Positions 19,393-52,436 of a stretch of 64,000 nucleotides of DNA are shown piece after piece. Position 1 is the first letter of the stretch. Each line of letters begins with the position of its first letter. Origin of the DNA: Acetobacter garciniae (GTDB lineage: Bacteria > Pseudomonadota > Alphaproteobacteria > Acetobacterales > Acetobacteraceae); contig NZ_JAFVMH010000013.1 in NCBI RefSeq assembly GCF_017377735.1, positions 1-64,000 of the forward strand, given 5' to 3'. The translations under genes and the position numbers were made by a program. The notes under the pieces are model-generated. The model ran no database searches. It saw only the letters and a program-made list of their open reading frames with translations, and was not told where the DNA came from.

Positions 19393-20598
19393 CTACCTCA
19401 ACCCGCCGACAAAACGGGCAATGCGCGCGCAGGCATCCGCAAGGTCGGCATCGGACGTGGCGCAGGACAGGCGCAGATACGGGGAATAGCCAAAGGCGCT
19501 GCCCGGAACCGTTGCCACGAATTCCTCTTCCAGCAGGGCCATGGCGAAGTCATGGTCCGTATCCAGCACGCTCCCCCCCGCCGTTCTGCGCCCCAGGCAG
19601 GCCGCCACACCCGGATAGGCGTAGAACGCCCCTTCGGGCATGGCGCAGGTCAGGCCGGGAATGGCGCGCAGGGCCTCGACCACGCTGCGCCGCCTGCGGC
19701 TGTAGACCGCGACCATTTCATGCACCAGGTCGGGCGGGCCATCCAGTGCCGCCGCTGCCGCTGCCTGGGCTATGGAGCACACGCCCGAAGTGGCGTTCCC
19801 CTGCACCGTGCGCATGGCCGCGATCAGGTCCGCCGGGCCACCGGCAAAGCCCACGCGCCAGCCGGTCATGGCATAGGCCTTGGACACGCCGTTCAGCGTA
19901 ATGGTACGGGCTTTCAGGTCGGGCGCGATTGCAGCGATGGAAGCCGCCTGCGCCCCGTCGAAAACCAGATGTTCGTAGATTTCATCTGACAGAATCCACA
20001 CATCCGGATAGGCGCGCAGCACCTCAGCTATGGCCTGCATGTCCTCTGGCGTGCAGACCGCCCCCGTGGGGTTGGAGGGAAAGTTCAGCACCACCCAGCG
20101 TGTTGCAGGGGTCAGGACCGCGGCCAGTGCCTCCGCCTTGAGACGAAAACCGTCTTCCTCCCGGCAGGGCACATAGACCGGCTTTGCCCCGAACATGCGC
20201 GCGATCAGCGGGTAGCTGACCCAGTAGGGGGCGGGTACGACAACCTCATCCCCCGGGTTCAGCGTGGCCATGAAGGCGTTGAAAATGACCTGCTTGCCGC
20301 CGTTGGACACCATGATTTCCGACGGCGCGTAATCCAGTGCGTTATCGCGCGCGAACTTGCGGGCAATGGCGGATTTGAGCGCTGGCGTGCCATCGATCGG
20401 CGGGTATTTGGTCTGCCCGTCAAGGGCGGCCTTGTGGGCGGCCTCCACCACCGCGGGCGGGGTCGCGAAGTCGGGCTCCCCCAGGGCCAGGGAGATCACG
20501 GGCTTGCCATCCGCACGCAGGGCCCGCGCGCGGGTGGCCATTTCAATGGTGGCGGGGGCCGGCAGGCCTTGCAGGCATTTTGCGAAAACGCGTGACAT
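19393..20598 (-). CDS. Pyridoxal-phosphate aminotransferase, class I (second tandem copy)
   Basis: Fold-type I aminotransferase of 401 residues, close in sequence to the gene upstream. The PLP lysine is in [18 protein letters not shown]; other blocks are SLALGEPDFATPP, SNGGKQVIFNAFMATLNPGDEVVVPAPYWVSYP and NFPSNPTGAVCTPEDM. It begins four bases after the stop of the other copy, so the pair is one transcription unit. Family members are aspartate or prephenate/glutamate aminotransferases; which keto acid this copy prefers cannot be told. The ATG at 20598 is the first conserved start; the open frame continues upstream inside the neighbouring gene. Confidence 0.88.
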   Translation of the reverse strand: MSRVFAKCLQGLPAPATIEMATRARALRADGKPVISLALGEPDFATPPAVVEAAHKAALDGQTKYPPIDGTPALKSAIARKFARDNALDYAPSEIMVSNGGKQVIFNAFMATLNPGDEVVVPAPYWVSYPLIARMFGAKPVYVPCREEDGFRLKAEALAAVLTPATRWVVLNFPSNPTGAVCTPEDMQAIAEVLRAYPDVWILSDEIYEHLVFDGAQAASIAAIAPDLKARTITLNGVSKAYAMTGWRVGFAGGPADLIAAMRTVQGNATSGVCSIAQAAAAAALDGPPDLVHEMVAVYSRRRRSVVEALRAIPGLTCAMPEGAFYAYPGVAACLGRRTAGGSVLDTDHDFAMALLEEEFVATVPGSAFGYSPYLRLSCATSDADLADACARIARFVGGLR

Positions 20599-20602
20599 TC
20601 TC

Positions 20603-21811
<1,209 letters not shown>

Positions 21812-21960: not shown

Positions 21961-23076
21961 TTAGCCCGATCGCCGACAAGTGCTTTGTAGCATATCAGGC
22001 ATGTCGCCCACCCCTGCACGGCGGAGGATCTGGGCCGGTGTCAGCCCGGCCTCCCGCATGGCCCGGACCGAAAGCGCACCATCACGCTTGGACAGGCGGC
22101 GCCCGCTTTCGTCACACAGGAGGGGGTGGAACGCATAGGCAGGGGTGGGCCAGCGCATAAGGGCCTGCAACAGGCGGTGCAGGTCGGTTGCGGGCCGCAG
22201 GTCCTCCCCGCGCGTGACCAGGGTAACGGTCTGGGCGGCGTCATCATGGGTGACGCACAGATGGTAGGAAACCGGCACGTCGCGCCGGGCCAGAACGACA
22301 TCGCCGAACAGTTCGGGCCGGCAGGCCACCACACCGCGATCAAGATCGCGATAGGTGAGCGGCCAGGCCGCGCCTTTTCCTTGCCCAGCGCCATGATTCG
22401 CGCCCCGATCCGGCCCGCAATCCCCCATCTGACCGTGACCGTGACCGTGACCGTGACCGTGACCGTGACCGTGACCGTGACCGTGACCGTGACCGTGACC
22501 GTGACCGTGACCGTGACCGTGACCGTGACCGTGACCGTGACCGTGACCGTGACCGTGACGCACGTGTTCGAGTGCTCGCGCCATGTCCAGCCGCAGCACG
22601 TAAGGCTGGCCCTGCGCCATACGCCGTTCCCGCTCCGCGTCGGACAAATGGCGGCACCGACCGGAATACAGCAGCCCGCCATCGGGGGCGGTATGCGGGG
22701 CCGAGAACATGGCAGCACTCTCGCGCGCGATATCCGCACGGGTGCAAAAGCACGGATACAGCACCCCAAGCCCGGCCAACCGGGCCAGCGTGCGCTTGTA
22801 GGCGGGCATGTTCTCGGACTGGCGCAGCACCAGGCCGTCGGGCACCAGGCCCAGCCAGGCCAGGTCATCCAGTGCCGCACGGGCGAATTCCGGCTTGCAA
22901 CGCTGGGGGTCTATGTCTTCAAGCCGGAGCAGCCACGCGCCATCGGGCCGGGAATACGCCCAGCCATGAAAGGCGGAGGCGACATGGCCCAGATGCAAAA
23001 GCCCCGTCGGGCTGGGGGCAAACCGCGTGCGCCATGCCGGGGCGTGCAAGATGTTGGAATGTAATGGAAACTTCAT
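21961..23076 (-). CDS. gluQ: Glutamyl-Q tRNA(Asp) synthetase with internal (His-Gly)21 tract
   Basis: Paralogue of glutamyl-tRNA synthetase lacking the anticodon-binding domain; the family attaches glutamate to queuosine in tRNA-Asp. Of 371 residues, the Rossmann core is intact: [14 protein letters not shown] with HLGH at 28-31, zinc ligands C109, C111, Y137 and C141, [10 protein letters not shown], and the KMSKS-like RRLSKRDGA. The odd part is residues 174-215, 21 consecutive His-Gly pairs encoded by perfect hexamers, inserted after [10 protein letters not shown] and before the returning strand [11 protein letters not shown]. Without this tract and its linker the length is about 300, normal for GluQ. 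The insertion lies in a loop of the family, so the enzyme may still work. Confidence 0.88.
22431..22556. repeat. Perfect hexanucleotide microsatellite, 21 copies of GACCGT
   Basis: 126 bases of uninterrupted GACCGT units, counted directly. The gluQ frame reads CAC GGT (His-Gly) on the minus strand. Because the unit is six bases, gain or loss of units never shifts the frame. All six frames stay open across it, which explains long spurious frames encoding Val-Thr or Arg-Ser repeats. Confidence 0.97.
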
Positions 23077-48435: not shown

Positions 48436-50148
48436 TCAGAACTTGAAGCGGAAATGCGCGCGGGCACCACTATCAACCGACTGGTCCCCGTATTGCCCGA
48501 TGAAGGAAAGACCGATGTCGATCCGGTCTGTCAGGCGTGCACTCAGCCCCGCATCGACAACGACCGCATTTGTGGACAATGCCACCCCGCCCACATCCAT
48601 GCCGCCATTCGTGGATGCGAATACCTGCCGCATGGTGGGTGTGGTCAGGCCGAAGGCATGACGGTAGGCCACCATGCCGTGGGGAACCAGCGTCAGCTTT
48701 CCGACCTGCACGGCCGAAGATGCACGGAAACCGAAGGGGGAGAACGTTACCCCTGTATCGGTCGCAGCACCCCGTACGGCCGACGGGCCGCCGTGTTCAT
48801 GATATCCATCGGTATGCAGATTGACGTAGGCGACATTGCCGAAGGGCTCAACAATCGTGTGCCCGGCGTGCAGTTTGTAGCTCAGTTCCCCAAAGCCCTG
48901 GGCGGTCCCGCCAAGATAATTGCTGTTCAGACGGTTTCCAAACCCGGGGAATGCCACGTTCCGACGGATACTGAGCATGTCCCACGTATAGGTAGCGCCC
49001 AGACGCAGGTTAAGATTACCCCAATGCGTGCCAGCGTAGCCGCCAACCGAAACATTGTTGCTGTGCCCGGATGAACTGCGTCCGCTGCCGATATCGAACA
49101 TGGACCGACCGTAGCTGAGCAGCCCGCCCACACGCCACGTGTCCAGCACCGGCGCATCGGCCCCCATTACGAACCCGGTCGTCGAATGCTGCATGGCCGC
49201 GGCATTGCCGTCGCCGGAATTATGGCCGAGGCTGCCATAGGCTTCCCCCCAAAAAACCGCCCGATCAGAATGACAACGCCCGTCATCGTGTTTCGTGCGT
49301 ACGTCCGCTGTACGGATCGTGCTGTCGACCTGGGCACTGTCGCAATCCGCGCCGTCCAGCCGGTCCAGAGCGGCCTGCCTGACAAAGAAGCTGTCCTGGA
49401 TCAGCGCCGTGCGGGCAGAAGCATGAATCTCGCCCGACAAGGCGTTGAACGCCGAACGGGCATTCGCCGCATTCAATTGTGAAACCGCCACAGCCACGCT
49501 GCTATTAGCCGGCAGGCGGTCCAACGCTCCCCCTACCGTGCTTTCGTTGCGGGTATTGGCTACCGAGGCAAAAGACACACCGTTCCGCTCATCCGTGACA
49601 TAGACATTCGTGCCATCGGTGGACAGGGACGGGGCAAGGAAGAGGTACGGATTCACAGCCGCGACAACATTGGAATTGTCGATGGTTACACCATCCGTTG
49701 CCGAAAAAAGCTCGTAAGCCTGGCCATATTTCAAGGGTGTTCCGGTCAGGGCTATGGTGCTGCCCGACAAAGTCAGGGCACCGTTGACCTTAACCTGATC
49801 GCTCTGGATCAGTTCATTCGTGGTGCCGTTGACCTGCACACTGGTGCCTGTATCGGTCCCCACGGCATTGGCCAGCAGGGTCGACCCCGCATCCATGCTC
49901 AGCGAACCGTTTGTCGTCAAAGTGCCGACCGGACCGTCCCCCGCGGCATCGCTGCCGGCGGGCGAGATAATACCGCCACTTTCGACCTCGGTTGCCCCCA
50001 CTATGCCAGAACCGGCCAGAACGCCGTTATTTTCCACCGTCACAGGAGAACTGGCGATCGAACCATCCACCGTCAGCGTACCGTTGGAGACCACCGTATT
50101 CCCGCTATAGGTATTGGTGCCCGAAAGGGTTTCGTTCCCGCCTGTCAC
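48436..50148 (-). CDS. Autotransporter, 3' part: passenger end and beta-barrel
   Basis: Downstream portion (about 570 residues) of a type V secreted protein whose 5' part is in the next frame. It begins with passenger sequence TGGNETLSGTNTYSGNTVVS, the type of autotransporter-associated repeat used in the 5' part, then a junction region and a C-terminal autotransporter beta-domain from about residue 290 (RAVFWGEAYGSLGHNSGDG, GFVMGADAPVLDTWRVGGLL, LGATYTWDMLSIRRNV) ending in the aromatic HFRFKF typical of outer-membrane barrels. It has no signal peptide and no good start site of its own; it would be made only if the frame is restored at the C5 tract 50155-50159. Called as coding sequence, but a pseudogene or sequencing error is possible. 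Confidence 0.75.
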   Translation of the reverse strand: MTGGNETLSGTNTYSGNTVVSNGTLTVDGSIASSPVTVENNGVLAGSGIVGATEVESGGIISPAGSDAAGDGPVGTLTTNGSLSMDAGSTLLANAVGTDTGTSVQVNGTTNELIQSDQVKVNGALTLSGSTIALTGTPLKYGQAYELFSATDGVTIDNSNVVAAVNPYLFLAPSLSTDGTNVYVTDERNGVSFASVANTRNESTVGGALDRLPANSSVAVAVSQLNAANARSAFNALSGEIHASARTALIQDSFFVRQAALDRLDGADCDSAQVDSTIRTADVRTKHDDGRCHSDRAVFWGEAYGSLGHNSGDGNAAAMQHSTTGFVMGADAPVLDTWRVGGLLSYGRSMFDIGSGRSSSGHSNNVSVGGYAGTHWGNLNLRLGATYTWDMLSIRRNVAFPGFGNRLNSNYLGGTAQGFGELSYKLHAGHTIVEPFGNVAYVNLHTDGYHEHGGPSAVRGAATDTGVTFSPFGFRASSAVQVGKLTLVPHGMVAYRHAFGLTTPTMRQVFASTNGGMDVGGVALSTNAVVVDAGLSARLTDRIDIGLSFIGQYGDQSVDSGARAHFRFKF

Positions 50149-50533
50149 GCTGAGCCCCCGGCACCGGTCATGCTGCCCGAATAGGTGCCGTCTGCATTGG
50201 TCACGTCCAGCGTGCCGTTCAGCAGACCATCCGCCCCGCCCGAAAGCGAACCGACCGTGGAGCCCACATCCGCCGAGCTTGCCCCCACCTGTGTGACGGT
50301 AAAGGTGCCGTCATTCGCAGCCAGCGTTCCCCCGATCGTGTTGCCATCCAGCGCCAGCGTGCCGCCATTATTCGTGACATCGCCCGTAACGGTATCACCC
50401 TGCCCAAGCGTAAGGTCCCCGGCGTTGGTCGCACTGGTGAACGTGCCGCCGGTCGCACTCAGGGTCGCACCTGCCGCGTTGTTGATGGCATCGCCACTGG
50501 TGTCGGTCAGGGTCGCCGTGCCGGCCTGGTTGT
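50106..50533 (-). repeat. Direct repeat copy A in the autotransporter passenger
   Basis: About 428 bases nearly identical to 50702-51130 at an offset of 596-597. Only a few substitutions are visible, plus the one-base C5/C6 difference that causes the frameshift. Confidence 0.85.
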
Positions 50534-52436
50534 CGATATCGTGCAGGGTCGCGCCATTTTCCGCCGTCAGTGTGCCGGTATTGGTGGTCGTCCCCGCAAC
50601 GGTGCCGCCGTTGATGTCGGTAACGCCATTATTCGCCAGCGCGCCGGCCAGCGAGCCAGGAAGGTCCAGAGCAGCCCCCTGATCGACTGTCGTCGTCCCG
50701 GTATAGGTATTGGTGCCCGAAAGGGTTTCGTTCCCGCCTGTCACGCTGAGCCCCCCGGCACCGGTCATACTGCCCGAATAGGTGCCGTCTGCATTGCTCA
50801 CGTCCAGCGTGCCGTTCAGCAGACCATCTGCCCCGCCCGAAAGCGAACCGACCGTGGAGCCCACATCCGCCGAGCTTGCCCCCACCTGTGTGACGGTAAA
50901 GGTGCCGTCATTCGCAGCCAGCGTTCCCCCGATCGTGTTGCCATCCAGCGCCAGCGTGCCGCCATTATTCGTGACATCGCCCGTAACGGTATCACCCTGC
51001 CCAAGCGTAAGGTCCCCGGCGTTGGTCGCACTGGTGAACGTGCCGCCGGTCGCACCCAGGGTCGCACCTGCCGCGTTGTTGATGGCATCCCCACTGGTAT
51101 CGGTCAGGGTCGCCGTGCCGGCCTGGTTGTCCAGATCGGCAAGCGTTGCACCGTCGGCCGACAGTGTGCCGGTATTGGTGGTGGTTCCAGCAACGGTATC
51201 GCCGTCCAGCGCCAGCGTGCCACCGTTATTCGCGACATCGCCCGCAATGGTATTGCCCTGCCCAAGCGTAAGGTCCCCGGCGTTGGTCGCACTGGTGAAC
51301 GTGCCGCCGGTCGCACCCAGGGTCGCACCTGCAGCGTTGTTGATGGCATCGCCACTGGTGTCGGTCAGGGTCGCCGTGCCGGCCTGATTGTCGATATCGT
51401 GCAGGGTCGCGCCATTTTCTGCCGTCAGCGTGCCGGTATTGGTGGTCGTCCCCGCAACGGTGCCGCCGTTGATGTCGGTAACGCCATTATTCGCCAGCGC
51501 GCCGGCCAGCGAGCCAGGAAGGTCCAGAGCAGCCCCCTGATCGACCGTCGTCGTCCCGGTATAGGTATTCGCACCCGCCAGGGTAAGGGCGCCACCGGTG
51601 CCTGAATCGGTAATGGTGAGGCCACCCGCTGTTCCAGCCTGGTAATTCGTGATCGGGTTGGTAATGGTGGCGTCATGCCCTGCAAGGTCGATCGTGCCGT
51701 TGTTGCCGGTGATCGAGAAGGTATTTCCAGAAATATCCGTTCCATCGAGCGCCAAGGTGCCCCCGTCGAAAATAGCGCTGGAAGATGACGATGGCAACGA
51801 TGACGCCGTTTGGGTTGTTGCGATAAATTCTGCCCCGCTCGCTACCGCAGCCGTTGCGGCAAGGCCATAAGGGTTATCTTCCGCATACGTATACGACATG
51901 GATGAACTGACATTATTATCGACAGGATAAAGCTCGTCAGTAACATCGGGCGTAAAATCCAGCATGATTTGCAAATCGTTAGCGGCAACAAGATGCAGTT
52001 CGGAATGAATAGTCGAGCCTTGCGTGTAGGTATTACCGTCAAATGTATACGTTGCTATAGTCTGGGTATCCCCGGTCCACTGATCGTACACCTGATCGTC
52101 TTCGGAAAAGTCAGTCGCCACAATTGCCGGATACCCCCCGACTCCCGGACTGGCCGTAACGTGCAGATCAGCGGATACCAGGGTTTCTGTTGTCCAGTCC
52201 CATGTAAATGTACCCCACACATAGGAGGTCGATACACCGCCCTGAAGAACATTGTACCAGGAATCCGCCGCCGTATTTGTCAGGTCATAATTAACGATTT
52301 CATCCGCCACCGCCTGCGCAACCGGTGCACCCATGCCGCCTGCCAGCAAGGCAAGAACGGAGACCGACCGCAAATAACGACACTTGAAAGATTTACCGAC
52401 TTTTTTAAATGCCGCCGTAAAATTATTCTTCTCCAC
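50145..52436 (-). CDS. Autotransporter, 5' part: signal peptide and repeat-rich passenger
   Basis: A 763-residue frame. Starts at GTG 52436 with GGAG seven bases upstream and a long signal peptide (MEKNNFTAAFKKVGKSFKCR, then SVSVLALLAGGMGAPVAQAVA). The passenger is Gly/Thr/Asn-rich beta-helix sequence with autotransporter-associated units such as LTLAGANTYTGTTTVDQGAA and NNGTLALDGNT-like blocks. It ends abruptly in GSMTGAGGSA and a TGA, where a second copy of the same unit continues GGLSVTGGNETLSG. Coding-strand G6 in that copy is G5 here, so one base is missing. If restored, the full protein would be about 1330 residues. Probable role: surface adhesin or biofilm factor, inferred. Confidence 0.8.
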   Translation of the reverse strand: MEKNNFTAAFKKVGKSFKCRYLRSVSVLALLAGGMGAPVAQAVADEIVNYDLTNTAADSWYNVLQGGVSTSYVWGTFTWDWTTETLVSADLHVTASPGVGGYPAIVATDFSEDDQVYDQWTGDTQTIATYTFDGNTYTQGSTIHSELHLVAANDLQIMLDFTPDVTDELYPVDNNVSSSMSYTYAEDNPYGLAATAAVASGAEFIATTQTASSLPSSSSSAIFDGGTLALDGTDISGNTFSITGNNGTIDLAGHDATITNPITNYQAGTAGGLTITDSGTGGALTLAGANTYTGTTTVDQGAALDLPGSLAGALANNGVTDINGGTVAGTTTNTGTLTAENGATLHDIDNQAGTATLTDTSGDAINNAAGATLGATGGTFTSATNAGDLTLGQGNTIAGDVANNGGTLALDGDTVAGTTTNTGTLSADGATLADLDNQAGTATLTDTSGDAINNAAGATLGATGGTFTSATNAGDLTLGQGDTVTGDVTNNGGTLALDGNTIGGTLAANDGTFTVTQVGASSADVGSTVGSLSGGADGLLNGTLDVSNADGTYSGSMTGAGGLSVTGGNETLSGTNTYTGTTTVDQGAALDLPGSLAGALANNGVTDINGGTVAGTTTNTGTLTAENGATLHDIDNQAGTATLTDTSGDAINNAAGATLSATGGTFTSATNAGDLTLGQGDTVTGDVTNNGGTLALDGNTIGGTLAANDGTFTVTQVGASSADVGSTVGSLSGGADGLLNGTLDVTNADGTYSGSMTGAGGSA
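50702..51130 (-). repeat. Direct repeat copy B in the autotransporter passenger
   Basis: Partner of 50106-50533. Here the C tract at 50751-50756 is six long and the reading frame is intact. Confidence 0.85.
51256..51570 (-). repeat. Third repeated passenger segment
   Basis: About 315 bases matching 50398-50712 at a constant offset of 858, encoding the TNTGTLTAENGATLHDIDNQ to TVDQGAALDLPGSLAG module. With copies A and B it shows that the passenger grew by shuffling of two or three modules. Confidence 0.8.

Follow-up and report, generated by a model that had tools for sequence, protein, structure and literature searches.

The window analysed here, a stretch of 64 kb, is the beginning of contig 5 in the 43-contig draft genome of Acetobacter garciniae (3.81 Mb), and its minus strand carries a gene for a glutamyl-Q tRNA(Asp) synthetase (GluQ) that contains a long run of identical hexamers (Table 1). 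The gene had been identified as gluQ in the original prediction, made from the sequence letters, and this was upheld by the NCBIfam GluQRS equivalog, which the ORF matched with 294.9 bits against a cut-off of 250; the other GluQRS models listed (TIGR03838, NF004312, NF004313 and NF004314) all fell under their cut-offs. Pfam recognized the GluRS/GlnRS catalytic domain plus a sub-threshold match over the repeat, and nothing else, so that the protein consists of a catalytic domain without an anticodon-binding domain, the arrangement of a GluQRS. Pfam and NCBIfam identify an HNH protein, the hopanoid methylase HpnR and a pair of aspartate-aminotransferase-like genes as the neighbors of gluQ. The members of this pair are adjacent to each other and have the same best match, PRK06107, in both cases below the cut-off; they possibly represent a tandem duplication. 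Farther along the window lies a Ser/Thr/Gly-rich ORF that contains two tandem repeats of 261 bp (88% matches) and matches PATR below threshold; its product resembles a surface protein or the passenger of an autotransporter.

Table 1. Features of the 64-kb window, with positions counted from its first letter
Feature	Position	Strand	Basis or remark
Aspartate-aminotransferase-like gene pair	19393..21805	minus	
gluQ, glutamyl-Q tRNA(Asp) synthetase, 371 aa + stop	21961..23076	minus	Pfam PF00749 9e-42, NCBIfam NF004315 5.5e-88
C-terminal part of catalytic fold, RLSKR signature, K330, R331	21964..22362	minus	alignment A1
Gly-rich irregular tail of insert, residues 216-238	22363..22431	minus	translation; pLDDT <50 for 178-233
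21 perfect, uninterrupted hexamers (GACCGT on plus strand, ACGGTC on minus strand)	22431..22556	minus	(His-Gly)21 in gluQ
(CAC GGT)21 in frame, residues 174-215	22432..22557	minus	minus-strand reading of the array
N-terminal part of catalytic fold, HLGH signature, C109, C111, Y137, C141	22558..23076	minus	alignment A1
763-aa Ser/Thr/Gly-rich ORF	50145..52436	minus	

The coordinates of the array, its count of 21 units and the residues it encodes were all right as originally given, and the period-6 match extends slightly beyond the perfect units, from 22430 to 22559. Positions six bases apart match at a rate of 0.291 in the window, and therefore only about 1e-60 period-6 runs of this length would be expected by chance in 3.8 Mb; the array is thus excluded as a chance product. 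The array consists of uninterrupted six-base tandem units within an ORF, which makes it a coding hexanucleotide microsatellite, and changes in copy number would leave the reading frame intact, as had been pointed out. The codon usage of the tract is also telling: GGT is used at 21 of 21 Gly positions, compared to 233 of 1663 Gly codons across 35 window ORFs (an uncurated set chosen by length, with the tract excluded). This uniformity favors copying of a DNA unit, since a His-Gly peptide under selection could be encoded without uniform codons. It supports the earlier view of a recent expansion, which also looks DNA-driven. A search for (ACGGTC)4 found no further occurrence in the A. garciniae genome and none in the 48 other genomes of the genus that were searched.

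The enzyme surrounding the array is, judging from its sequence, an intact-looking GluQRS. HLGH, K330, R331, C109, C111, Y137 and C141 are invariant in an 18-row alignment from the genus that includes the A. garciniae protein (alignment A1). We take HLGH and RLSKR to be the class I synthetase signatures (HxGH-like and KxSKR-like), and C109, C111, Y137 and C141 are presumably the Cys/Tyr metal site of GluQRS. Genes for tgt and QueG, both over curated cut-offs, are found elsewhere in the genome, and the queuosine substrate of the enzyme can therefore probably be made. A narrow search of the open-licence literature found no paper joining glutamyl-Q tRNA with Acetobacter.

An AlphaFold2 model built with the 18-row alignment (mean pLDDT 72.9) places the insert in a region of very low confidence, with pLDDT below 50 at residues 178-233, while ten-residue means reach 92-94 at residues 141-170 and 90-92 at residues 241-260. 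The insert is thus most likely a disordered loop in the predicted structure. It had been placed between two conserved strands, and modelled strands do flank the region (residues 160-163 and 241-244); direct contact with the upstream strand does not hold, as a short helix (165-173) intervenes there. The Gly-rich residues downstream of the perfect repeat may be a decayed older repeat. Foldseek matched the model to GluRS structures and to E. coli GluQRS (YadB; PDB 4a91 and 1nzj at ranks 29 and 31), with which the window protein shares both family and fold, and phmmer also matched it to 1nzj.

The loop that holds the array differs in length from one species to the next. GluQ was matched at 1e-30 in 46 of 49 genomes of the genus and in none of the other three. 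Counted from LRLDM (or its counterpart) to FGD across these 46 orthologues, the loop measures 32-41 residues in 36, 49-64 residues in seven and 96 residues in A. garciniae. In the remaining two, from the sister species G033 and G047, contigs end inside a different array, (GAAGCA)n, which encodes (Glu-Ala)n. In G033, 114 nt of this array stand on the left contig and 41 nt on the right one, where a further 46 residues separate the array from WPLV; we infer that the two contigs adjoin. The GluQ loop arrays begin 8 and about 13 residues after LRLDM. Residues 174-238 of the A. garciniae protein are nearly all missing from its nearest tree neighbor (L007, from G048) in the 18-row alignment. From these sequences the loop appears hypervariable in the genus, Acetobacter included. 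Copy number itself can be compared across species only, as a difference in loop length, with the G033 and G047 arrays cut by contig ends.

A tree of the 46 GluQ rows, from which the loop was left out, groups G033 with G047 (100/100) and sets A. garciniae apart, weakly beside G048 (84/68). This tree requires two array changes, yet a single clade of A. garciniae with G033 and G047 stands at p-AU 0.239, and the tree alone therefore does not reject a common origin of the arrays. Such an origin is disfavored by the differing units (GACCGT versus GAAGCA), and it is for this reason, rather than because of the tree, that independent origins are the simpler reading of the sequences.

In a sample of 200 genomes of the family, a GluQ match was found in 199, the weak ones probably being GluRS. 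Among the 150 matches listed (a count made by eye), the 148 from outside the genus were each unbroken and without a long insert in the loop, and the largest excess over the query span seen among those listed was about 11 codons (G158); matches from the 49 other matched genomes, A. garciniae and G011 among them, lie outside this list. Beyond the family, a scan of 591 relatives kept 80 loci. Three of these, picked by eye and then aligned, have additional residues close to the loop that form no tandem repeat: L067 (Sphingomonas sp.), L073 (a Methylocystis MAG) and L102 (Sphingobium indicum). The idea that the loop has grown in this genus alone was dropped owing to these three, which argue that the region bears insertions elsewhere too and that loop growth need not stem from microsatellites alone. 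By resemblance, L073 and L102 might owe their extra residues to inserted palindromic elements.

The array in gluQ is not the only one of its kind in the A. garciniae genome, and this recurrence in genome and genus, the main explanation of the tract, was missed by the original prediction, sound as it was on the tract itself. A (His-Asp)n hexamer array of 128 nt lies in a PF01545 CDF cation-efflux protein (L195:2540-2667, on G000:C1), and an (Ala-Ser)n array of 99 nt lies close to the N-terminus of a PF01223 endonuclease; the period-6 match in gluQ measures 130 nt. A first sample of 438,580 bases from this genome held three hexamer arrays of at least 24 nt, a biased count because all three were known beforehand, and a second sample of 392,414 bases held none. 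In 400 kb of G048, the nearest genome in the GluQ tree, three were found (102, 65 and 76 nt): one encodes (AQ)n in a DUF4159 protein, another encodes (ST)n in a TonB receptor, and no clear gene covers the remaining one. In 400 kb each of G003 and G012 there was no hexamer array (G012 had one nonamer array), and none appeared in a sample of G092, a genome of another genus. The density of hexamer arrays is thus uneven, and the process behind them is judged uneven because the second A. garciniae sample and the G003 and G012 sequences lack them.

Particular hexamers are much more widespread. The pattern (CTGGCA)4, which arose as the backward-sequence control of the genome pattern search, occurs in 21 of the 49 genomes of the genus. 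On the GluQ tree, the part that includes A. garciniae has it in 20 of 30 rows and the other part in 0 of 16, the 21st genome (G042) being without a GluQ row; G048, G003 and G012 belong to the ten rows of the first part that lack it. The pattern (GAAGCA)4 occurs in eight of the 49 genomes, one of which (G020) lies in the other part of the tree. Eleven (CTGGCA) arrays were fetched by means of a pattern limited to a single phase. Six lie in ORFs with Pfam domains: four close to the beginning of oligopeptide-type ABC ATPases, one in a RodZ protein and one beside the HisKA match of a histidine kinase. One more lies in a scanned ORF without a Pfam match. The other four, one of them at a contig end, meet no ORF of more than 193 codons, the Pfam scan having covered the first seven. 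In G047, a (Gly-Thr)n hexamer array (L335:1502-1578) follows shortly after the HisKA match in a histidine kinase; this Pfam match covers no more than positions 2-30 of the 66 in HisKA, and the array may split the domain. That hexamers are scattered over unrelated genes, and over sites with no clear gene, fits a mutational process combined with selection against damage.

Repeats with other unit lengths accompany the hexamers. Heptamer and octamer arrays are present in the samples from A. garciniae and G048, including (CACCAGC)16 at G000:C1:269188-269300 (L245:19188-19300) in the former and (CACCAAG)18, a similar unit, at L234:15315-15441 in the latter. The A. garciniae genome also contains (CGAGCCAC)6.8 and (AGGGCAC)7.9 at G000:C1:118028-118081 and 121105-121159, and a run of 14 G at G000:C2:4720-4733. 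These last three have units not divisible by three and are possible phase-variation sites.

The gluQ tract is most likely a hexanucleotide microsatellite that grew by slippage and is tolerated as a disordered linker. A short HG-like seed would have been lengthened through replication slippage or unequal recombination, with gains and losses of six bases preserving the gluQ frame. The loop would leave the catalytic fold free, so that selection would limit its length only weakly, and GluQ carrying the tract would presumably still glutamylate queuosine on tRNA-Asp. Nothing in the tract need be required for catalysis, and the model calls for no function of the His-Gly tract itself. A tolerated loop insertion had been among the earlier suggestions, and it is consistent with both the structure model and the orthologue loops. 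The evidence for the microsatellite reading is cross-species, the species itself being sampled through a single strain.

Several candidate contributors to array growth were rejected. Expansion aided by a hairpin was set aside when shuffled sequences folded at least as well as the array in 200 of 200 cases for the plus strand and 199 of 200 for the minus strand. Loss of MutS does not account for the arrays, as MutS is over its cut-off in 47 of 49 genomes of the genus, A. garciniae included. The motif GATGGG lies within about 20 nt of the three A. garciniae hexamer arrays (GluQ, CDF/L195 and endonuclease/L044); it is absent from the 40-nt flanks of the other arrays listed, and its recurrence was taken as chance.

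It is possible, and compatible with slippage growth, that assembly has distorted the copy number in part, the true array having more or fewer units. The A. garciniae assembly, a draft in 43 contigs, has three arrays of about 100 nt or more, and the gluQ contigs of both G033 and G047 end inside the array. Contig ends made of (GAAGCA)n are seen in these two genomes (C71, C129 and C148 of G033; C153 and C209 of G047), and (GAAGCA) sites fall on four contigs of G033; hexamer arrays seem to break both assemblies. The gluQ array of A. garciniae is, however, spanned within one contig, and the three-contig genome G048 also has arrays of 65-127 nt. The exact count of 21 from the draft assembly is provisional.

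A broader proposal seems doubtful. It holds that one clade of the genus continually makes long six-base microsatellites that encode alternating dipeptides (HG, EA, HD, HE, AS, AQ, ST and GT) in disordered linkers of core proteins, whose length and charge would evolve by slippage; the GluQ loop would be a hot spot hit at least twice, the process would be driven by a clade-specific replication or repair trait, and the variants would possibly be adaptive.

It is unlikely that this lineage has no more need of GluQ, so that the gene is decaying and nothing restrains the array. The A. garciniae end branch in the 46-row tree is long (0.30 versus a median of 0.072) and might reflect relaxed constraint on the whole gene, and GluQ went unmatched in the three genomes noted above. 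The fold had also been called essential-type, a description that does not suit the GluQRS enzyme itself in E. coli according to an excerpt of PMC3542578. Against decay, the frame is open across 371 codons, the motif residues are kept in the 18-row alignment, and tgt and QueG are present in the genome.

Alternating His residues can bind metals, and the tract could in principle be a selected metal-binding (Zn, Ni or Cu) or acid-sensing tail that regulates GluQ; this is quite improbable. A parallel is offered by the CDF cation-efflux family, in which hexamers likewise encode alternating His dipeptides, (HD)n in A. garciniae and (HE)n in others. Hexamer arrays of at least 24 nt were found in 10 of the 30 cation-efflux loci read: the (HD)n array, (HE)n arrays of 30-83 nt in eight of the 29 other orthologues, and a 24-nt array in L218. 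A His-rich N-terminus is present in all 30 of these loci, whereas the His-Gly tract in GluQ is particular to this one genome, being absent from the 45 other orthologues of the genus (43 loops seen whole and two in part). The sole other His cluster that a pattern search detected in the GluQ loops is HQHTH in L008. The tract of the sister pair is Glu-Ala, and the codons of the His-Gly tract are uniform. Aligning the orthologue loops, as had been proposed, thus revealed the length variation of a tolerated loop without conservation of His-Gly. The suggestions of metal binding as a function of GluQ and of a device that tunes queuosine-tRNA glutamylation fail as the best reading, because conservation among the orthologues extends to neither the His tract nor the loop length. 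An in-frame contingency locus, in which array length tunes GluQ activity and hence the decoding of Asp codons, would find a parallel in the differently composed arrays of one loop in two lineages and is very improbable. A phase-variable switch demands a shift of the frame or of the promoter spacing, and six-base steps inside an ORF leave the frame unchanged. The occurrence of hexamer arrays in other, unrelated genes and at sites with no clear gene also speaks against it, being what a general mutational process would produce.

Tandem repeats in coding sequences have precedents in bacteria. Acetobacter pasteurianus IFO 3283 reportedly has tandem repeats that are hyper-mutable (Azuma et al. 2009). 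Repeats in genes of that strain are cited as hyper-mutable, a sign of genetic instability, in passages of PMC4686929 that also cite a strain stable over nine years; as described there, they resemble the gluQ array in being tandem repeats in genes, under the same genus name. In Haemophilus influenzae, the relevant portion of PMC2651432 reports that 87% of hexanucleotide simple sequence repeats lie inside ORFs, where they are frame-neutral, and that coding repeats compared among four genomes are conserved or altered in sequence, not length. As far as that portion goes, the two systems have in-frame six-base coding units in common and differ in that the arrays here reach about 100-130 nt and vary in length between species. 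A literature search found no paper linking bacterial in-frame hexanucleotide tandem repeats with a slipped-strand mechanism.

Among the readings considered, the best makes the His-Gly tract one of many repeats of this kind, which in this group probably lengthen by copying slips and are tolerated in loose parts of proteins; a novel functional device is not indicated. The tract, striking as it is in a synthetase-like enzyme, belongs to a wider mutational habit of the genus, and over-reading it as a metal site is unwarranted; its interest lies in the genus-wide pattern more than in GluQ. Arrays of this kind can break assemblies inside genes such as gluQ, and the acetic acid bacteria suggest themselves for measurements of how microsatellites change in frame within bacterial genes.
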